From Tubiluchus corallicola (lineage: Eukaryota; Priapulida; Priapulimorpha; Priapulimorphida; Tubiluchidae), in the NCBI GenBank assembly GCA_030141605.1, contig JAQGDQ010000087.1:496001-560000 (forward strand): a stretch of DNA of 64,000 bases. Reading direction: 5' to 3'. Both the position numbers and the translations under genes were made by a program. Below, piece after piece: positions 44,364 through 60,709 of this stretch. Each line of letters begins with the position of its first letter. Positions within the stretch are counted from its first letter, which is position 1. The notes under the pieces were generated by a model that was given only the letters and a program-made list of their open reading frames with translations, ran no database searches and was not told where the DNA came from.

Positions 44364-45258
44364 ATACCTGTCAACCTATTATTAGCGTTGCCCTTATATA
44401 GGGTCTTGCTAAACCTTATAAGACAGCACGGGACCTTACCGAATCTGAAAATATGTTAATTTGCTGGGAGCCAACAGAAACAGACCAGTCACGAGATCGC
44501 ATATCAGTCCACACAACAACAAAAATCATTGAAACATGATTTTATTGTCTTGTTTTCATGAAAAAAAACTATTTAGTTATGGTGTGATATTATTTATGTA
44601 TGCATATCAGATGGAACAAACACTTAACTTTATATATACATATATATTAAAAAAAAGACAAAACACATAAAAACGAGAGAGGGTTCAAGTTAATCTCACA
44701 TTCTTCCTTATAGTTTTATTCCGAAAAGTTTTAGTTTTCGCCACACTTTCCTTGTGTCCACGTGTTGAGAAATGGCTCTTCAGGTCGTAAAACCCGGACG
44801 CTCGCACTTTCACATTTTTCCTACATGGAACACAAAACGAGTAGTCGGAGCCTTCTGACGAGGCTTTCACCCATCCAGCGTGTGCTCCACCACAAAACTT
44901 TGGGCTCTCCCATTCTTTTAAATGACGTCCAGTTCCAGTTTTTTGCTTTTTCGCCGGAGGAACACGTTCGCTTGCCATGTTTTTTTTCACGAATGAAATA
45001 GCAGAAGTGGTTAACCGGATGTTAAAAATTATTAGCTGAGTGTGCGCAATGACAACGTTTGAACGGAAGTAAGATCGTCTGCATGAAAGTACCGATCGAA
45101 AAGGGAATATTCGATGCGATTATTTTCGCTGAGCAACATTTTGATTTTGCCGTATATTTTTCTTTTCGCCGTATGGATTTTCTTGTAAGCCGTATTGGGC
45201 CAAAAATGCATTTTTGCCGTACAGCAATACGGCCAAACCGTATAGGTTGACAGGTATG
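44364..45258. mobile_element. DNA transposon, about 0.9 kb, with terminal inverted repeats and a zinc-finger ORF
   Basis: The left end CATACCTGTCAACCTAT and the right end ATAGGTTGACAGGTATG are exact reverse complements of each other (17 nt, of which the TA dinucleotides could be target-site duplications). Inside, near the right end, CGTATTGC and GCAATACGG words form subterminal repeats. The interior is richer in GC than the flanks and holds one intact ORF (44685-44990, minus). There is no transposase catalytic domain, so the element should be non-autonomous. The superfamily is uncertain: a hAT or Tc1/mariner-like origin is possible. Confidence 0.75.
44685..44990 (-). CDS. Transposon-borne small zinc-finger protein, 101 aa
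   Basis: A single-exon ORF with ATG start. It begins with a basic PPAKKQKTGTGRH patch, then a HLKEWESP motif. The core is C-x2-C-x16-H-x5-H (FCVPC ... KSHFSTRGH), a BED/hAT-like zinc finger that in related elements precedes a transposase. A basic C-terminal tail (KTFRNKTIRKN) follows. No DDE/D or hAT dimerisation region is present, so it is either the first exon of a longer transposase that has been lost or a stand-alone DNA-binding protein of the element. It lies wholly between the inverted repeats. Confidence 0.65.
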   Translation of the reverse strand: MKKNMASERVPPAKKQKTGTGRHLKEWESPKFCGGAHAGWVKASSEGSDYSFCVPCRKNVKVRASGFYDLKSHFSTRGHKESVAKTKTFRNKTIRKNVRLT

Positions 45259-48262: not shown

Positions 48263-50791
48263 TTAACATGGTTTTGAATATGATGAAAGTTCTTGTTCTA
48301 ATTCTTTTATTTCATCAAGAAGTTTACATTTCTTCAACTTTAACTGAAGCAATACATCTAAAAATACAATAAATGATGATTGAAAAAATGCATGAGAAAA
48401 AACCTGATGCACATGTCAGGTGTATTTCAAAGATTTTGCAAATTCATGACATACAGAGTCTTAATTTTTAGCTGTAACAAATCTACAGCACATAGACTTT
48501 CAAAATTTGACAGGTGCTAAGATCTCAATTGTATTATAATATTTGAAACATTAAAGAAATTTAACGTGGAACTTTTGAAGCAGTTAAACATATATTATGT
48601 ACCAACACAGCTGCAGATGACACACAGTTACATAAGAAATTGTCATATAATGGTAATTCCCAACATACAGTGTATAACCATTATAATGAACACAGTTTAT
48701 TGCGAACACACCGGTAATGCAAACTCACAAAAGGGAAGGAACTTTCGACATTTATTTAGCTAGTATAATAGCTTTCATTACAGCATGCTCTGTTATTGCA
48801 TATTGCGAACTTCTTGTCAGGTCAAATTGTTTGCATTACTATGTATTTATAAGTTTTTATTGCGTACTTTACCTTTACAGCCATTTGCAAGTTAATTTAC
48901 AGTTAAATTTAACCCATCATTCTTGGTGCTGCAAAAAAGTTGCTGAGCAAGCAGCATGCGGAGTTATGACATGTCGAAAAGTCATTTTGTCTACTACTGT
49001 ATAAAAATAATGAGTCACTCAGCAGTTTATCATCAAGCTGTTTTGCTTATGTATGTACAATGGCAGCGCACTGCTGAGATGTTTTTTTCATACAAGTGAT
49101 AAATCCTATGCAAAAACTTTTCATAAAAGGGACAAACAATAAAAATTTTTTATGCAAACAAAATTGACTGACTTTTTTGAATCTCGTTGACTTTACTAAA
49201 CAAATCAAGTAAATTTAAAACAGAACATGCACACGCAATTTAGCATGGAAACGTTTGATAATTTTTAGTTTATTGAAATTACATACTTTTCATTGAATTT
49301 AACTATGCTGCAAATTAGTTGTTACTTGACAACATCTTCTAAAAGTAGTTACAATCCGCTATGAAGCCACACATTGTACATTATGTATACACTTTTATTG
49401 TTAATAGTCCCTCTAGTAGTCATACACATGTGATTAGCCGCATATGCTTATAGAGTACCTCGGTTATGGAGCACTTTTTCTGGGTCCTTGGGCAGGTTCA
49501 CTAGACTAATGTTATACTGTACATTAAACATAATAGCAGTTAGGTATAATACCATAAATGACAAAAAAAATTTGTCGCAATAAAGTAAAGAATAAAAGTC
49601 AAGTCACCTTCAGTTAATTCTGGATGTTGTTGAAGTTCTGCTACAATATGGAGAGCTTTATCATGAGTTGAAGAAGTGCATGTACCTTCACTACAGTCAC
49701 CCCATTTTGTTTCAAGGTATTTTTTCTCTACTACCTAAATGCAATATTAAGTAGCATAATTAAACAAAGCTTATTAATGATAATAATTCAGTAACTAGTC
49801 TGGCATGCAAAACATTGGGTTACTACATTACAGAGTTTTTTCTGACCAAATGCCTAGACACTATTTAACCATTACCATGGAATCCGTTTTATCATAAAAA
49901 TTAGAGTGCAAAGTTACCTATTGTGCAGTCACAATAAAAAAGCTGGCTAAGAGCTAACTACATCAAAAACAAAGAGAATGATACCACCTTCGTGAACCAG
50001 GGGTCGGTTTCACAAAGTTGTCACTAAGTTAACAACATCATTATTACATTCAATTAACTATTAATAACGACATAGTCAAGTTAGTGACGGCTTTGTGAAA
50101 CTGGGCCCAGATCTGTTTATAAGATTACAACGCAAGCGAGTTACCCAAAAAGATCCTCCTAACTATTTACCACATAATAACATTTTCTAATTGTTAATAT
50201 CACACAACCGAATAAAACTACCTATATGCGGTTTTTATTTACTTTTGTAGTGCTACATTTTAAGGCAGCACATGAATTCTGTAACAAAATCACTGTAGTT
50301 ATTACAGAGCCTTATGGCTTCTTTTCCAGCCAAAAAAACATCCCTGTTAAATAGCCATGCGGAAAAGACCAGATTCACCTCCTAAGCCAAAAAACATCCC
50401 AGTTAAATAGCAATGTGGAAAAGAAGCCATAAGGCTCACTAGTCTCTCTTGTACTGATCACTGCCTTAAACTACTTGGGCAATAAATCAGGACTGTCTAT
50501 GTAAAAACTTTTACTCATAGTATACTACACCTAAGCTGAAAATTATCACAAAAAACATAGCAAGTTCGGAACATTACATATCTCAAATTACACACTTATG
50601 GAGCAACTTAGGACAAGAATATTTACCTGTGACAAATGCTTTATATCCATGCACAACTTTTTAACATTATTAGAAATTCTGTTTTGTTCCTGTTCCTCTT
50701 CATATCGCTGTTCAGCTGCAGCTTTATATGCTTCTTTATCTACGATATCCACTGTCGTTGACGTCACTTCTTCAGAATTCTCAAAGCTCAT
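48263..50791 (-). CDS. Small charged coiled-coil protein, 128 aa, 3 exons, unrecognised
   Basis: Exons 50627-50791, 49608-49734 and 48263-48357 (387 nt with stop) join in frame with clean sites: CAG|GTAAAT to TTTAG, then AAG|GTGACT to TTTTAG. The start ATG begins MSFENSEEVTSTT. The protein is acidic at first, then helical and charged (AAAEQRYEEEQEQNRISNNV), has a central Cys-containing loop (KWGDCSEGTC), and ends in a heptad-rich helix (LLQLKLKKCKLLDEIKELEQ) before the stop. Size and layout suit a small subunit of a multiprotein complex, for example a cytoskeletal or kinetochore component. I do not recognise the family and assign no function. The first exon stays open upstream of the ATG to an acceptor at 50815-50816, so there is at least one more 5' exon, coding or not. 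Confidence 0.75.
48358..49607 (-). other. Intron 2 of the coiled-coil gene
   Basis: AT-rich, 1.25 kb, no other feature seen. The plus-strand ORF at 48717-49004 is antisense and has no motif. Confidence 0.6.
49999..50110. mobile_element. MITE, about 110 bp, with long terminal inverted repeats
   Basis: The left arm GTTTCACAAAGTTGTCACTA and the reverse complement of the right arm GTTTCACAAAGCCGTCACTA match at 18 of 20 positions, flanked by GGGTC/GGGCCC. The whole element is nearly one hairpin. GGGxCxGTTTCACAAAG ends of this kind occur in many marine invertebrate genomes. It lies in intron 1 of the coiled-coil gene. Confidence 0.8.
50307..50437. repeat. Foldback element: perfect 21-bp inverted repeat enclosing a direct repeat
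   Basis: The arms at 50307-50327 (starting GAGCCTTATGGC) and 50417-50437 are perfect reverse complements. Between them a unit of about 37 bp (CCAAAAAACATCCC then GTTAAATAGC and GGAAAAG) occurs twice in direct orientation. The layout suggests a small foldback transposon or a duplicated insertion. It lies in intron 1 of the coiled-coil gene, about 200 bp from the MITE. Confidence 0.85.
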
Positions 50792-52117
50792 GTTTGTAAC
50801 ATGCTTATTGTTATCTGTAAATAAAATAATGGTAACAAATCAATAACATGTACGTGCCTGTGGAGCAGTTATTCACATGTGCATACAAAACTCTGTTGAA
50901 AATTAGATCTGTTGGGAGCGGAGTAGGACACTACTAGCCAAAGTAGGAGAATTTGTGTACTTGGGCTAGCCTATATTATTAATAGTAACAATTGAAAACG
51001 TCAAGACATGTTGAAATTATACATCTGATAAAATAAAATAATCTTATACGGCCAATAAGTATGGCTTCGATATTAATCCTTTTGAGGTGAAATAAGCCCA
51101 CTTGTTAGGTGATTCCAACGTTTGCTTAAGGTATAATCATTTTTATTTGATCTTGCTTGCTTTACAGACAAGTGATCTGTTTCACTACCTCTTGGACAAA
51201 TAATTGTTTTCTACTAAGTAAACGGGCTAGCGAGCTATGAGCCCCACATAGTTTCTCTCTTTAAAGCATTAGATACTTAGTTAATGTTATAATTATATTA
51301 ATGGAGCTAATAATAACGATGATATTATTATTACGTTTGTAAATAATACATTTGTAAATTGTCACTAGGACTATCAATCATTATTATAAAGTTGACTTTT
51401 TTCTAAAACAAATTTAGTTTTATATTTTATTATGTCATAATTCTCGATTCTCGACAGAAATTGCCAGTGCCCTACATGGGCTGTCCATGTACGATACTTA
51501 GCGTAGGTGTCCTACTTCGGCTAGCGGCATACTCCACGCCCTATAAGATCAATTCTGTGCGAAAAACGATTCAATCCCATACCCTTATTAGATATGAACC
51601 TATAACTTTAGTGAATGGGCTCTGGCGATCGATCTGGCCACTTGCGATCTCAGTTGCAACTGTGGCATCTTATAAGCCTCTTTCAAGTCACCTCTCAGTC
51701 TCTGGTAAGCTAGTGTTGGCAATTTAAGGAACTTCAACTAGTCAGTATACGATAATTCTCTCAAGTCACTAAGCCTTCTTGTCACATTTCTTTATGCTTG
51801 TTCCAGCTGATCTATATATTTCACCATTGATGGGTGCCACACTGAGCTTGAAAACTCCAAATGGGGCCTTGCAATCGCTTTGTGCAGACAGATAAACATA
51901 CAATGGGTAGGGTTACCTGTCTAAGGGTAAGTGGTAAATGTTCCATCTTAAGTAATTGGCCTTATATTGACGTTCTAGCAAAAAATTACAGTCTAGATGG
52001 TTCTGCTGTCAGCACAAATAAAATTAATTATGATGTATTAGTTTAATACTTTTAATACTATTAAAAACAATAACCTGCAAAACTGTGAAACCCACATCGT
52101 TACTTGCTGACACTTAC

Positions 52118-52231: not shown

Positions 52232-55068
52232 CTGTAGAGAGCAGGATGCCTAGGGAGTAACCCGTGCATAATTGCCAACTAGTATGGGACGTAGGAAATT
52301 AATATGAAACACATATAGAACGTTTGTGCTTGTACAGCATCTTGCATATAGATCACCATATACTATCACAATCCACGTCTCTGCATATCATCTTCCCACT
52401 ATACACGGCAGGCGATAAGCCCATTGCTGTACATGGTGAGGCGATACAAGGCAAGTTGATATGCACCGCTGTGGTGTAGGGGATGTGGCAAGCACGAACG
52501 TCCCACTAGTATTTTCAGGCACCAGCTACAGTTATTTATTACTTAATAAAATGATAATGTTAGTTAATGCTAGTTAGCTAGAGCTTCCGGGTAACCCTTT
52601 CACTTGTCACTTGGTGCTACTCACACAGTAACACTAACAGTGTCAGTACGCAGTTATGAAAAAGTGCTTGCTGGTTTATACAGTATATAGAATGAGCACT
52701 AAACTTTCAAACTTTTAATAATTTTGTTCAGGTTCAGTTTCTCTGAATGTCATGGGGTGGACTGTAAGTAACTATAATTCTTGTTCTTGTCTAAGATTTT
52801 CCAAATACAGTTCGACTTCATTTTGAAGACTCTTACCCAGTATGAGTGTGCATGCCAAACAATCAGAATCAGAAGACTGGTGAGGATAGTTAAAGGATAA
52901 TGGAAATTAGGTATCTGGGAATGAAGTGATAATAATTGTGCGTGCTTCTGAAAATAGTGTGTCCAATAAGCTCCTTATTGCAAGAGCACTATCCCTTCAC
53001 CTGGGAAGAGCCCTCATTGGTGTATCAATGTCCATCATTGGACTTATGCTTTAGATTACCTGCAGACAACAGGTGACGGATACGTTACCACATTATCATT
53101 GTGCAAATTCCATTCCAGGATGTTGTGAATGAAGAACAAGTGCTTGAAGTATTTGCCACTGCCAATAGATATATGATGTGCCTGTTAAGTTTCAGCTCAA
53201 ATTGCGGCAGAGTGAAATTTTGACATAAATGGCATCTGGACAGCAACAGTTCAGTGTATTTTGTAAAACATTACTAGTCTCACACTCTGTTTCCTAATAG
53301 GTAACGTTGACCAGTGGGTGAAATGTCTGCAGCATATCCCTCTCTAGAGGTGTGATGGTATTGATGTAGAGCAAATCTTTCTGCTCTCTATTGAACCATT
53401 TTAACTTGGCTTATTAGTACTTGCGTTTAAAGGTCCCTGTCTGGCAGAATTACAAAGTGGGCCACACAAGTGCAACGTAGGCTTTGTTATTCATCTTAGG
53501 TAGTGTCGTTATAGGCATCCAGGTAATCGGAATTCTAACTATATCTCTGTCCGAAACCGGACCGGAACAGAAAGAATTGTTTCAAGCAGGATACTACAAA
53601 GGCTGCTTTCATTTTAGTTGTAGTTCATTAGGGTAGAATTAATTCCTAAATGCTAGAAAGCACTGAAGTACCCCTAGAACATTTTACGAACTAACAAGAA
53701 TTGCTTAGTTGACATATTAGTGTTTAAGAGCCCATAGTCTTGAGTTTAGAACATTTCTGATGCTATTATAACTACAGCTACTAGGATAATAAGTTACTAA
53801 TCCAAAGTCTTGGGTCTGTTAGCATTAATGATTTCCATCTTTGAAGTTTAAAGTATTATTGACCATTGAAGTGACACGACTGTTGTGTTGGTTCGAACAG
53901 AGGTCATTTGAGATATGCACTATGAGATCTTTAATGTATTTTACATTCTTTAATTAAATCCGTTGCATAATCTTAGTCAAGATAATTTCACATCAAGATC
54001 ATGTCGAAAATAAAATGTGAATTAATTTTTTTGCATTTCCCGTCTTTCAAGTTGGTATCAAAACTTAATTAATTTGTGGGCAGTACCATCATTACATAGT
54101 TTAGTATATATAACCATGGAGAGTGTATGACAATCTGTGTGGTTTGGTTTTATGAGTAATGACAGTTTTGCACATAGTAAGCTTTATGATCAATTTAAAC
54201 TCCCGGGAGACCAAGGTGTTCAAATCATACTGGAATCAACACTTTCAGCAATATAATACAGTATAGCTTAGGTACCACATCTTTGTTGATGTAGTTTTTC
54301 ACCTTTAAATTTTTCTCTTTTTTTATAATGTTGCAGAAAAAACTTTTTTTGTTCAGATTTTTGTTATTTCTAAATGCCCGCCAATTCTTCTTCCATTTCA
54401 TTTTGCTACAAAAACAAAATGCAATGCGGTAACACATGTGTGTTCCAGATCTTATATGCCATTGTTACAAGCAAGCATGTAATCTTTCATTTTCATCACC
54501 AAGCATCACTCTTCTTAGCATCTATGCATCAAGATTTCTGTAAGATCATTTTTGAATTGAAAATTCATAGTAGTTAGTTTGGGTTAAAAAGTAAGACTCC
54601 GGGCCATAAAATAAGTAAATGTGGTAATTACAGTACTAAAACAATGACTGGAATGCACTATTAGATACGTGCAAGAAAATGTTTGAATTGGTTATTTGTT
54701 GTTAACTATCAATTTTTTGCAATTGGCAATGTTGCTAACGATGTTACTAATCATTAACTTATTTGTTTGACATCTACTAGAACTAAAATAAGAGAAATAC
54801 ATATTTAAGGTGAACTAAATGAAGAAATGAGTGAAACTGAGGAATCACGGCATTTATAGAAATCATGAATAAAGTTGTGGTGTGTTGTTCTAGATAAATG
54901 GATGCCAAGTGTTTTGACTACTTAAATGTCATTAATTATCATCATGCATTTTTAGTATTTTGACCAGCTGCTTACTTAAATGTGCTCTGAGGTTTCCATA
55001 ATCATGGTAATAGCTACCATTTGTGAAAATTAGTAAAATATTGTAGAAGTCTGAAATCTGGTGTCACA
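52232..55068. other. Intergenic DNA between the divergent coiled-coil and BRMS1-like genes
   Basis: The two genes point away from each other, so this stretch should hold both promoters. I see no clear TATA or initiator. A weak SINE-like tRNA head may lie at 52468-52530 (GTGGTGTAGGGGATGTGG). The 3' half is AT-rich. Confidence 0.4.
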
Positions 55069-55351
55069 ATGGATACGTATCCAACCTACATGGACATGGT
55101 CAAGCTAGTGGATGATGTGGGTAATCAAGAACGGTTAGCACAGTCAAAACCAGTCTCCCATAAGCAGCCCACAAACGGCTTCATGCGATTCGCTCTGGAG
55201 AAAAGGAGCGAAGTAACGAAAGACCATCCAGGCATGAGCAATCGAGAAATCACAAAACTGCTGAGCACTCGATGGAAGCGCATGAGCAGAAGTGAACGTA
55301 AGCCGTATGAGATTGATTTAAACCAGAGCGATTTTAAGCGCAGGAGAAGAG
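55069..55351 (+). CDS. BRMS1-like coding exon 1: HMG box
   Basis: The exon encodes [16 protein letters not shown], then the box [20 protein letters not shown] and [20 protein letters not shown], then FKRRRR. The PxNxFMxF start, EITKLL helix 2 and W at residue 69 match Sox/TCF-type HMG boxes more than HMGB type, although I cannot assign the subfamily. The donor AGAAGAG|GTAACT (phase 1) joins to ATAATGATTCG in exon 2 to read D-N-D-S-K. Read through without splicing, the frame continues to a stop at 55425, giving a 118-aa HMG-only protein. Confidence 0.8.
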
Positions 55352-58300
55352 GTAACTTCAGGAGTTGGGAATATGGCTCGGCAAAGCAGAGTATCCCGAT
55401 TTACAGGGTAAAGAATAATTGGTGATTTTGTGAAATTAAGTTACTTTATTGTTCGAAACTAAGATTTTACAGTCAGTAAAAATATAAGCAATGAATCATA
55501 CACTTGTTAAGTTCTTGCTTTTATTCGGGATTATGTTGACGTAAGTTCAAAATAAAGCTCTAATGTTCTAAAATATTGAAAACTACAACAGCTTTTTTTA
55601 AATCAAAGCTTAGATTACATAATAATTACTTCAGATAGCTAAATTTTGTTAAAAGCTGCACGAGGCTCAGCAAATCCGCTAAGACTGTCGCCTTTTTGTC
55701 ACATTCACGTGAACAACAAATAGGTGCGGTACAGTGATAAGCATGATCATGAAGTGCAGTATTCGTTTGTGATGTCGGTGTGACATAGAGCCCATTTTCT
55801 TGACATCACATCAGCATTTTCTAGCAGTCTTCGCTTACGCAAACATGCTTGACGTGCAGGGAAGATGCCTACCATTGCACACACTATGGTTAGTTTGTGA
55901 CGTAAGCGATAGCTGTGTTCATTTGCCGTTAATCAACTTCTGAGGTAATTATTCAAATATTAGAAACAATTGCTAACTTTTACAAGCAAAAAATGTATAT
56001 TTTGGACAGTAAATTAAAATGAGATTGAGTTTAATCAGTCGTTTGCTGTTCCTTTTAGACTTTAGATAATGATTCGAAGGATGGGAAAGATGACAGTGAA
56101 GATGAAACTATGGATATGGATGAACCAGAGGATGTTATTACAGTTGTTGAGAGTGATAAAAGCACTGATGAATCCACATCATCTGCAGAGACGGATGCTG
56201 AGGATAGCTCTGGTATAGTACTGACTGTCTCCAGCTTTGCAAATATGCTCTTAATTAAATATCGGTGCTTGTGTAATGTTGCTATGCTCTTTAAAGTATT
56301 TCGCTAATTTTTGAAGACTAGCTTGATGTTATGTTTTTGGTTAATTTAATGATTTCTGAAATATTGTATTATTTATGCTTACATGAAAGTACTGTGTGTG
56401 AATCTGCTTTATTTTAAAATGTGGATGCTTTCATTTTTTGATCTGCATTAGAAATTTTTGGGGATTCTGCCATAAATATTATGCCGCTGGTTGTAAATAT
56501 ATTGTCTTGTGTTACTTCTAGTATTTTTCTTAAGGGTATTTTAAAAAAAGCATTAATTTTTAGTAAAAGTAATATTGAATGAAATACCAGTTGATCTTCT
56601 GCGAATTTCAGACATGGATGAAGAAGAATGTGAATTGCGGAGAACGGAGTGTTTGTATGACATGCATGATTTAGAAAAACAATTCAGTGATTTAAAAGAA
56701 AAGTACGTATTTTTCTTTTTTTAGTTTCTTGCAGCAATGAAAAGTTTCATCATGGCATGATATCGTTTGACTTGTTTACAATAACACTAATTTGCCCTAT
56801 TGCCTTCCCACTTTTTTATTGGAATATGCCTGTTTCTGCGCTCTCAGTTCATTGTTATATTTTATTATAGTTTGTACAGAGAGAGAATAAGCCAGATTGA
56901 GGCAAAATTAAAAGAAGTCCATTTGGGTGTGGCTCCCGAGTACTTAATACCTCTGGGTGAACTCCAAGAAAATATGCGTGTTCGAACACAAGTTGCAGGT
57001 GAGGTAGTAGTAATCACATTCTTGGTTGAAAGAAATGCGGTTTTATGACTTAGTTAGTAATTTTTGCACAATGTGTATGTGATTTTGTGCCCCAAGGATG
57101 CTGTATGACAGTTTCATGTGTGTTATCTTAGCTAGAAGAAGTAATACTTCTACAGTTTGATGTGCAGAAGAAACATGTCATATTCACTTTTGGTGTCTTC
57201 GATAATCACGTTTAAGTTGCTTATATTGTCTATGGAGATATTGTTTATTTATTGTTAATACATGTATATATGCATGTTGTTGTGGATTTATTACAAGGTG
57301 AACATTGTGAAATTCTCAAATTGACATTGATTGTTGTCATTGCGTGATAATATTTGCAGATTTTTATGCTATTACGTGACGAAATCATTGATGTGGACGA
57401 ATGAAACTAAACAGCATTATTATTCTTTTGAGAGTTTTGACTAATTTATTAACTCGAATACTTAGGTATTTTGAAAGAACTTCGTACTGAAGCAGTTAGA
57501 AAAGATTATGATTGTGAATTGCAGTCAGCACATCAAAGCTATGAGGTAGGTCTGAAATTTGATGGAGTTGGTGCATTAGGTGTGTAGTAAGTTCGTAAAA
57601 TTTTTATTTTTATGTTGTTTAGAGATGTGTTCGGCAATATTAAAACTAGTGTTTCCATCGAGTACTCGGGTACTTACCCGCATTGTTTATTATCCGAGCC
57701 TGATATTCCTACCCATTCCAACAGTGAAAATGCAGACAATATTATTAATAGGATGGTCATTAAATAAGAATTCATTTAAAATTTAAATGCTGCTTTCAGT
57801 GGCACACTTGTACTGTACAATAGATACCTACTAGGAAACTATTAACACTGTACTGGCACATTGCCAACCTCCACTCAAACGGTCTTTAATAAATTATTAT
57901 TTGAAATACTGCATAGGGATGTTTTCAGCATTAGCAAGCTAACAGCGATTATATCTCTATTAGTTACAAGCATATAGCAGACCAAACCATTTTTGCTGAA
58001 GGGATGACCTACAAAACTTCACGGAAAATAAACTGTGATTTTACAAAAGGGTTAATTATTCAAGCAAAATGGTTTATTAACATCTAAAGGCTTTCAGGCC
58101 ACTAGCAATGATGCCAACAAACAGATTGTTAAGTTTAACAATCCAGATTGATTGTTTAACGTTACTCAAAAACCACAATAGATTATTATAATCCCTATGC
58201 TGTAGGTGATTCATTGATAAAACATGCAATACACATAATTAAGAAGCCTGAGAGATAAGGCGGTGCAGTGGCAGAACACTAATTTTTGTGATTCAAGTGT

Positions 58301-60709
58301 CCAAGGCTCGTGTTCAAGGCCTAAGCCTGTAATATAACTGAATGTTTATTGCTATGATAACACTGTTTGTTGAAATGTACCAGTGGTTGTTTTTATTCGC
58401 AAACATAAATGATTACAATTTACTCAGTGCCACAAATCTTAACAACCGAGTACCGGGGTACCCGACTGGTATAAGCAAAAGGGTATCCAAGTCTGATTTT
58501 TGCTGATTGATGTAAACGCTAGTTAAAACAGCTATACTTTTGTGGTAAATTGAATTTTTTGCACTGCTTAATTTTTGTGCATTTTGTGTGATTTGCAATT
58601 GGCCACATTATATGAATTTCCTTTATACTTTTACTTTGCATTTATACTAATGAGAATGAAGGGTCTTTTCTGTAAAATTTAATTTGTTTTCAGTCTGACA
58701 AACTGCTGGTTTATGACCAAGTGAAATCAGAACTTGAAGAGAAAATCCGACATTTGGAAGAAGATAGGGATAATATAGATATAACATCAGGTAACTTGTA
58801 ACTGTAACATCTGTGAGGGAATCTTAAAAAGTTAAATGCAGCAGCTTGCTTGAATAAGTTATTTTCTTTATATTTCTGATGAGTCAATTCAGAGTATGGG
58901 TTACATTGTAGATCACAGTGACAATTTCATTTCTTTATTTATAGATAAACTTATTTATAGAGAAAACTATAGATAAAGAAGAACTTTCATCTAAGATAAA
59001 GATTGCAATAATAAAAGCTTTTCTTGAGATGAAAAATCTTTATGACATTTGTCTTGAAATAGTATGTACATGAGCTGAAACGAAAAAAATCATTCCATTG
59101 TTAGATTATTGTATTTTGTTTTGAATTTCTACATTTGTACTTGTATCTTTCATACTGCACTAATAATAACTTCGCACTGAGCTTCCTATATCTGCTTTTT
59201 TATTTATGATGATTGCCATTTTGTATTACATTTGAACAGACATATGGAATGAACTACATTTTGGCTCAAAGAAGAAAAAGAAACAAACTAGTTCCATGTT
59301 TCCGGAGAAAAGACGCAAACCTGTAACAGTAACTGGACCATACATTGTTTATATGCTGTCGGAAGCTGATGTTTTGGAAGATTGGACAATAATTAAAAAG
59401 GTGTGGTGTTTAACTGACTTCACAATTTAATTGCCATTTTGACGGCATTTTAACTGTGGAGTAGTTCAGTTGCAAGACAGTGTTCTTGCATTCACTGCTT
59501 TAACTGACTTACCTTTTCTAATTTTTCAAATAAAACTGGCGCCACTTGTTAGCTGTCGTGTGTATATGAACTTATTTATCAGGTTTTGTCTTTCTTACAG
59601 GCTATGGGTATACAGAAGAGAAAAGGTGAGAATATTTCAAAACTATTTCATGCCAACAGATTAGATAGCTTATTGTTTCAAAATGTACTATTAAAATCTA
59701 GAAGAAAAGACAAGATTATTTAGATGGTGACTTAATAGTGATGGTTTTCAAAATTAGTCAACTGTTTTGTAAAAGTAGACTGTGAAATAACTTGATACCT
59801 TATGATACAATACAATGGCATTACTCATATCTGAGTTGCTGATCTTATAGTCAAGTTGCCTGACTGCACCATTACCTTGATATGTGGGACAAGTTTTAAA
59901 CCTATAGACAAACATTAACCTATAGTTATGCTTGATTCAGACTGTTTGTCCACCTGTTTTACATACTTTATTGCACTGAAGTATTGTTTGAGAGACACAT
60001 AATACACTTTGCAAATAAACTACTCATATTCTGCACAAATGTCCATTTTGATCTGTAACAAAATGTGAATATGCTCACGAACTTATGTCACTTGTATGTA
60101 GAATAAAGCAAGCAAACTATAAGCTTGGCCTTAATAAGTTATTGATCTGAAACTGAAAGACTTGAAAATACTTTGGGGTGCCATCAACAAAGCAAAGTAG
60201 GAAAAGGGTTACGAGTCCTTTCTGTAGACTTGACAGCAGCCTCAACATAAAAATGCTTGTTTGACTTTTATCACATTCCTGAATTTTGTCAGACTACCAA
60301 CCAGCAAAACTGCCATCAAAGTACTTCAAAAATTTTCGGGAACATTCCCGTTGGATGGTAGTTTTTGATCGCTTGCTTTTGCTGGCTTTTTTATCAAGGA
60401 GTGAAAGTGCTTTATTGTTATTTCACATTCTAAAACAATGTTGAATTAAAACACAAACATATTTTCATGACAAAATTCAGCAAAGTCATCATCAGTATAA
60501 CCACTCTGCATTGCTTTTCTGTATTGCAGTATTGCTTGATTTTGATAATATCGAATGACAAATGTAATTAACTAAATTGTATTAATCTGAAATTTACATA
60601 CTTATGGCTAGTGATATGACATGAGTATTAACATTCTGCTTATTTTACATTTTAGTTAAGCAGTTTTGTCAAAAATAGTTTCTCTTGTTGTTTTGCAGTG
60701 AGACTGTGA
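55069..60709 (+). CDS. BRMS1L-like: HMG-box/BRMS1 fusion protein (Sds3-family Sin3-HDAC corepressor subunit), 9 exons, 340 aa
   Basis: Exons 55069-55351, 56066-56212, 56612-56702, 56871-56998, 57466-57545, 58694-58790, 59240-59400, 59601-59625 and 60699-60709 join in frame with GT-AG borders (1023 nt with stop). Residues 34-85 form an HMG box; 95-143 are acidic; 146-290 are the Sds3/BRMS1 coiled-coil region ([76 protein letters not shown]); then a lysine-rich stretch and the hallmark [19 protein letters not shown] (about 307-325). BRMS1 and BRMS1L bridge and dimerise within the nuclear Sin3-HDAC complex. The ATG has a good Kozak context (acaATGG). The protein ends after [11 protein letters not shown], like short BRMS1, and lacks the extra C-terminal domain of BRMS1L. 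The HMG box is not a normal part of this family. Confidence 0.85.
55551..55556 (+). terminator. Possible intronic polyadenylation signal after the HMG exon
   Basis: AATAAA lies in intron 1, 126 nt after the in-frame stop of the unspliced HMG reading frame. If used, it would yield a stand-alone 118-aa HMG protein. Confidence 0.35.
56066..56212 (+). CDS. BRMS1-like coding exon 2: acidic region
   Basis: [20 protein letters not shown], then [20 protein letters not shown] and ETDAEDSS. It is equivalent to the acidic Ser/Glu-rich N-terminus of human BRMS1 and BRMS1L. The acceptor used must be the second AG (TTTAG at 56061-56065); the first, 7 nt upstream, would break the frame. An internal ATG at 56110 would give a start resembling ordinary BRMS1, so a promoter in intron 1 could make an HMG-less form. 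Confidence 0.8.
56612..58790 (+). CDS. BRMS1-like coding exons 3-6: Sds3 coiled-coil core
   Basis: Four exons (56612-56702, 56871-56998, 57466-57545, 58694-58790) encode the dimerising helical core. [20 protein letters not shown] matches human [20 protein letters not shown], and later blocks ([42 protein letters not shown]) match equally well. Introns are short (168-1148 bp). The junction of exons 3 and 4 gives N in KENLYRER, where BRMS1 has K or Q. Confidence 0.9.
57546..58693 (+). other. Intron 5 of the BRMS1-like gene, with repeat content
   Basis: Contains a SINE-like tRNA head at 58258-58335 (GGTGCAGTGGCAGAACAC and CTCGTGTTCAAGGCC) and two GGTACC-type palindromic motifs, GAGTACTCGGGTACTTACCC at 57660-57679 and GAGTACCGGGGTACCCGA at 58448-58465, that may be the ends of an inserted element. 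Confidence 0.5.
58258..58335 (+). mobile_element. tRNA-derived SINE head
   Basis: An A-box-like GGTGCAGTGGCAGAACAC and a B-box-like CGTGTTCAAGGCC are spaced as in a tRNA gene. No full cloverleaf. Confidence 0.45.
59240..60709 (+). CDS. BRMS1-like coding exons 7-9: basic stretch, GPYIVYML block and stop
   Basis: Exon 7 (59240-59400) carries [20 protein letters not shown], a likely nuclear localisation signal, and the family block [20 protein letters not shown]. Exon 8 is 25 nt (AMGIQKRK) and exon 9 adds VRL then TGA. The last junction (TTTTGCAG acceptor) is the least certain because only three codons follow. Confidence 0.8.
59626..60698 (+). other. Intron 8 of the BRMS1-like gene
   Basis: 1.07 kb, AT-rich, with nothing recognisable. 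A plus-strand ORF near 59470-59664 overlaps exon 8 in another frame and is fortuitous. Confidence 0.6.

Follow-up and report, generated by a model that had tools for sequence, protein, structure and literature searches.

In a 64,000-nt stretch of Tubiluchus corallicola DNA (the window; positions 496001–560000 of contig C544), an exon encoding an HMG box and the downstream BRMS1 gene may form one transcription unit. At a probability of about 0.4, this was the single most likely model, given that coding-like sequence in the first recognisable BRMS1 exon reached up to its acceptor and that the HMG exon was the best upstream start exon in 53000–56000. The weights were assigned by judgement; two readings with separate genes received smaller shares, and the rest was left unspecified. 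The initial annotation had proposed such a fusion through one particular junction. The fusion was retained as possible, whereas the junction named for it was not favoured, an old MITE was found in the intron, and BRMS1 has a closer candidate start, ATG 55491.

The HMG-box ORF (55069–55425; this and the features below are on the forward strand unless stated otherwise) was open throughout, began in the context ACAATGG, and encoded 118 aa followed by a stop. It was intact and present in a single copy, and the codons of its N-terminal part and box were coding-like. The Pfam profile HMG_box (PF00505) matched the ORF over profile positions 2–54 of 69 with 55.8 bits (cut-off, 25.4; E = 6.3e-15), with the box at about 55162–55320. 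With this match and the open frame, the HMG-box coding stretch reported initially from 55069 onward is real. No other domain was found in the 118-aa ORF. In an AlphaFold model made from the single sequence, the mean pLDDT was 66.9, with the box helices at about 90 and a low-confidence tail; the best fold matches were HMG boxes (Bobby Sox homolog, 1.6e-3; HMGB2; HBP1), none of them with E ≤ 0.001. HMG boxes bend DNA.

A search of the genome (343.5 Mb, 2344 contigs) with the ORF gave seven matches, one of which was itself, and the next best was only 38% identical, which argues against a recent retrocopy. An exon-by-exon profile search gave at least 34 HMG-box matches genome-wide, this ORF included. 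HBP1 was rejected as the source of the exon: the HBP1-like exons sit on C2317, where the HMG exon comes after an AXH exon, and AXH, taken together with an HMG box as the mark of HBP1, was matched four times in the genome, on C1048 and C2317, and not on C544. Capicua was likewise rejected, since the box that we take from its motif to be capicua-like is located on C2136. No relatives of the HMG ORF were found among the viral contigs searched. Two other loci are recorded here as separate observations. On C1048, an HMG box lies in a single 241-aa open frame (locus L002, 1453–2178, reverse strand) whose first half is coiled-coil-like, and the protein may resemble NHP10/TFPT. At locus L009 (1123–1612, forward strand), overlapping frames of tandemly repeated FKL/QTQFQA-like units adjoin the capicua-like HMG exon.

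The BRMS1 gene begins at 56059 or 56066, depending on the acceptor used. Its product matched Sds3 (PF08598) with 76.6 bits (cut-off, 25.4; E = 3.6e-21), and its best solved relative was the human BRMS1 coiled coil (2xus, 2.4e-10); in both queries the last exon was wrong over about 30 residues, which lie outside the matched stretches. The first recognisable exon (56066–56212) encodes the acidic N-terminus and has its first in-frame ATG at 56110. The coiled-coil start at 56612–56702 was supported by the Sds3 profile, the 2xus match and splicing, and the exons at 56871–56998, 57466–57545, 58694–58790 and 59240–59400 by the Sds3 profile, splice signals and genome matches. A further exon (59601–59625, AMGIQKRK) was placed by splice signals and by what we take to be likeness to the end of human BRMS1, and the proposed last exon (60699–60709, VRL and a stop) by a splice signal only. 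Seven introns of 168–1148 nt thus follow the first recognisable exon, the last of them defined only by a splice signal. The BRMS1 protein had six matches in the genome, all of them to its own exons. On C1779, two Sds3-like exons near the profile cut-off presumably belong to SUDS3. With a query of 194 of the 246 residues, trimmed of the acidic start and of the three C-terminal residues, no BRMS1 relatives were found in prokaryote contigs. Elsewhere in the window, two frames were observed on the reverse strand: a 144-aa ORF at 44685–45119 with a Cys/His pattern, presumably like a transposase zinc finger, which matched no Pfam or NCBIfam family over the cut-off, and a frame at 50588–50839 resembling the start exon of another gene, with a sub-threshold match to Pfam SVIP (E = 0.023).

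Splicing could join the HMG box to BRMS1 in a single open frame by two possible junctions. The junction proposed initially uses the phase-1 donor GAG/GTAACT (55351–55352) and the acceptor ACTTTAG/ATA (56065–56066). This donor was indeed good, scoring 4.08 and ranking 42 among the 3351 GTs of the forward strand of the window, on a generic matrix not trained on this species; with the same matrix, the seven donors of BRMS1 scored from −0.5 to 8.7. The frame across 55351/56066 ran into the acidic stretch and on along the BRMS1 exons, including the Sds3 core, with no stop in between, and gave 340 aa; the open frame was as had been described. The alternative junction uses the phase-0 donor AGG/GTAAAG (55407–55408, score 1.76), which is in frame with the acceptor TTCCTTTTAG/ACT (56058–56059) and gives 361 aa. 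Of the two AGs, which are 7 nt apart, the one before 56059 comes first and follows a tract richer in pyrimidines, with 20 nt separating it from the next AG upstream; at six other BRMS1 acceptors (56612 to 59601), the preceding AG is 18–58 nt off. The first AG past the branch site is usually the one that is spliced. From donor 55351, this first AG breaks the frame, which reads ...RRRRDFR and then two stops, so that it ends after three residues, whereas from donor 55407 the frame is kept. Thus, 56066 is the second AG, 7 nt past a better one, and 55351/56066 is not the favoured junction.

To determine how readily such junctions arise, synonymous shuffles of the ORF (n = 5000) were scored. A phase-1 donor of at least 4.08 appeared in 26% of the shuffles, and one in either usable phase (0 or 1) in 40%; therefore, in-frame joining alone is unsurprising. 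A usable-phase donor of at least 1.76 appeared in 94%, so that the mere presence of donor 55407 means little. Among the 39 ATG ORFs of at least 60 aa in the window, four carried such a phase-1 donor and eight a phase-0 or phase-1 donor.

Base composition broke at 55408, where GC fell from 0.47 to 0.26 (logLR, 7.3); the corresponding logLR was 2.8 for position 55351 and 5.5 for the stop codon at 55425. In a codon model whose training set was ten genes or longest open frames from this genome, the codons from 55351 to 55407 were coding-like (LR 5.6), and the whole 24-codon tail had an LR of 2.0. In a narrower codon model, based on BRMS1, Sox genes and one further HMG gene, the tail was non-coding-like, with 14% of 842 non-coding windows scoring as high, which would favour donor 55351; the broader model was relied on over the narrower one. 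It was also considered whether the HMG fold extends beyond 55351, but the tail resembled six HMG boxes of the genome at chance level, its similarity score being matched by 32% of 1794 open non-coding translations, and this counts neither way. By composition and codons, junction 55407/56059 fits the end of the coding-like sequence better than 55351/56066. The composition break and the coding-like codons would be explained nearly as well by a separate HMG gene that ends at 55425.

The region between the two coding stretches is mostly occupied by an old MITE copy, an inverted-repeat element flanked by TTAA, at 55529–56057, which makes up 529 of the 714 nt of the 55351/56066 intron (74%) and 81% of the alternative intron. 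A genome search with the gap sequence gave about 2660 first-look candidates. Besides itself, 40 matches were listed, of which 39 were long, covering about 55529 to 56055 at 80–84% identity, and one was partial (78%). Among 14 fetched copies, 13 had inverted repeats at both ends, with a length of 536–558 nt, and of these 13, read by eye, 10 had TTAA on the left and 12 on the right. Terminal inverted repeats, TTAA flanks and many copies of one length identify the element as a TTAA-flanked MITE. The window copy, the only one of this family found in the window, has kept its right repeat, which provides the pyrimidine tract ahead of the AG at 56057–56058; its left repeat is not recognisable, so that its left edge is uncertain. 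Its mean identity to the 14 copies (0.864) was practically that among the 14 themselves (0.866), which dates the insertion to roughly the time when the family spread. Motifs of promoters and poly(A) sites between the two coding stretches (CpG, TGACGT, CACGTG and AATAAA at 55551) had been considered as evidence for two genes; this argument was dropped because all of them are part of the MITE, as is the CpG-rich sequence that starts at 55529. As a side observation, an AG also stood right at the right end of one of the 13 other copies (L030). As the family is abundant and its right end is pyrimidine-rich, it may supply acceptors elsewhere.

If the HMG exon is not part of BRMS1, BRMS1 must start in another way, and this could have happened through the MITE itself. 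A real though not a likely possibility is that the HMG ORF stands alone as a single-exon gene and that the first exon of BRMS1 was split. The original exon would have run from ATG 55491 straight into 56059, the MITE would have hit a TTAA about 20 nt past the start, and translation of BRMS1 would now begin at ATG 56110, from a leader in or before the MITE, so that its acidic N-terminus would be shorter. Consistent with this, ATG 55491 and the 17 nt after it (55491–55510; MNHTLVKTLDND...), which end in TTAA at 55507–55510, were open and in frame with BRMS1 when the MITE flanks were joined at that TTAA, giving 255 aa. An in-frame open ATG within 12 codons was found, however, at 16% of nearby non-coding points, and 39 of 500 boundary choices gave one, so that this frame is suggestive only; the seven codons from ATG 55491 were not coding-like (LR 0.47), the uncertain left edge of the MITE weakens the reconstruction, and the stop of the HMG ORF lies only about 65 nt before this ATG. 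Between that stop and the MITE, no donor scored above −1.02, which favours the fusion. The donor at 55540, just inside the MITE (score 3.08), is out of frame from ATG 55491. As for the present start, ATG 56110 has a suitable context (ACTATGG), but four out-of-frame ATGs lie ahead of it. The stretch 56065–56112, which ends with this ATG codon, had a coding score above that of open non-coding controls (fractions as high, 0.0 of 1450 and 0.000 of 5206). An upstream coding exon is therefore expected, unless the coding-like stretch before 56110 is a relic of the lost start, as the split exon would allow. In a published comparison (PMC13173789), vertebrates alone showed an intron ahead of the BRMS1 start, which favours an unbroken first exon. 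An old insertion must also have been tolerated inside a coding exon if the exon was split, and it would presumably be tolerated more easily in an intron, which is a point for the fusion.

The start of BRMS1 could also lie in some other upstream exon, beyond the HMG ORF or inside the MITE, again with two genes, but this is unlikely. Among ATG start exons in 53000–56000 that read into the BRMS1 frame with a donor score of at least 3, the HMG exon had the best donor (4.08), and the runner-up, 53323–53349 (MSAAYPSLE), was nearly equal (3.99). The latter is in frame into the first AG, and its nine codons were coding-like (LR 6.3). Two non-HMG start exons with such donors were present in these 3 kb, so that one is expected by chance. 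If the start lay beyond the HMG ORF, the HMG gene would be nested in a BRMS1 intron, and nesting of genes on the same strand is uncommon. Candidates inside the MITE had donor scores of 2.44 and 1.41, but the one at 55845 was not coding-like (LR 0.12). Several of these results weigh against the fusion: in-phase donors are common by chance, 55351/56066 needs the less favoured AG, 53323–53349 has a nearly equal donor, and the MITE flanks give BRMS1 an in-frame ATG of its own. In addition, one survey does not describe an HMG box in BRMS1 proteins, with 'HMG' occurring 0 times in its main text (PMC13173789), and no HMG-BRMS1 or HMG-Sds3 fusion was found in literature titles among the matches listed.

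Under the fusion model, the exon from ATG 55069 would be spliced onto the BRMS1 exon across an intron that is now mostly filled by the old MITE, most probably from 55407 to 56059 (361 aa) and otherwise from 55351 to 56066 (340 aa). Both domains, the open frames, the MITE and a coding signal at the exon edge were observed. The joint transcript would be translated into a protein with an HMG box, an acidic linker and the BRMS1 coiled coils. BRMS1 is a component of Sin3-HDAC, according to the text available of the comparison (PMC13173789), and a subunit of this complex that carries an HMG box could contact DNA directly. It is doubtful, on balance, that the lineage has its own HMG-BRMS1 protein, in which a transposon end serves as splice acceptor and the corepressor has a DNA-binding module of its own.

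The predicted product was compared with known systems. BRMS1 and BRMS1L, Sds3-family subunits of Sin3-HDAC, have the Sds3 domain, the coiled-coil start and the acidic N-terminus in common with it; the gene described here differs in the possible N-terminal HMG box and in the MITE directly before the first recognisable exon. With HBP1, SOX and HMGB, it shares the HMG box, by profile and by fold (best E, 1.6e-3), but here the box lies in a short 118-aa ORF, and the HBP1 of this genome is elsewhere (C2317). HMG20B/BRAF35 of LSD1-CoREST and SMARCE1/BAF57 of SWI/SNF combine an HMG box and a coiled coil in a chromatin-modifying complex; those are separate subunits, whereas the box considered here would belong to BRMS1 itself. 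In CSB-PiggyBac, genes were joined via the splice signal of a transposon. A mobile element would likewise aid splicing here, but it would contribute splice-site sequence only and no coding domain. The C-terminus of BRMS1 is short and without the capped Tudor domain, as described for human and demosponge BRMS1 in the text available of the comparison (PMC13173789).

If the fusion is true, a Sin3-HDAC subunit could be brought to its targets by a DNA-bending domain of its own rather than by partner proteins, and a short transposon would have contributed to the form of the joined gene. If it is not, the locus would be a clear case of a transposon between neighbouring coding units mimicking one gene in sequence-only models.
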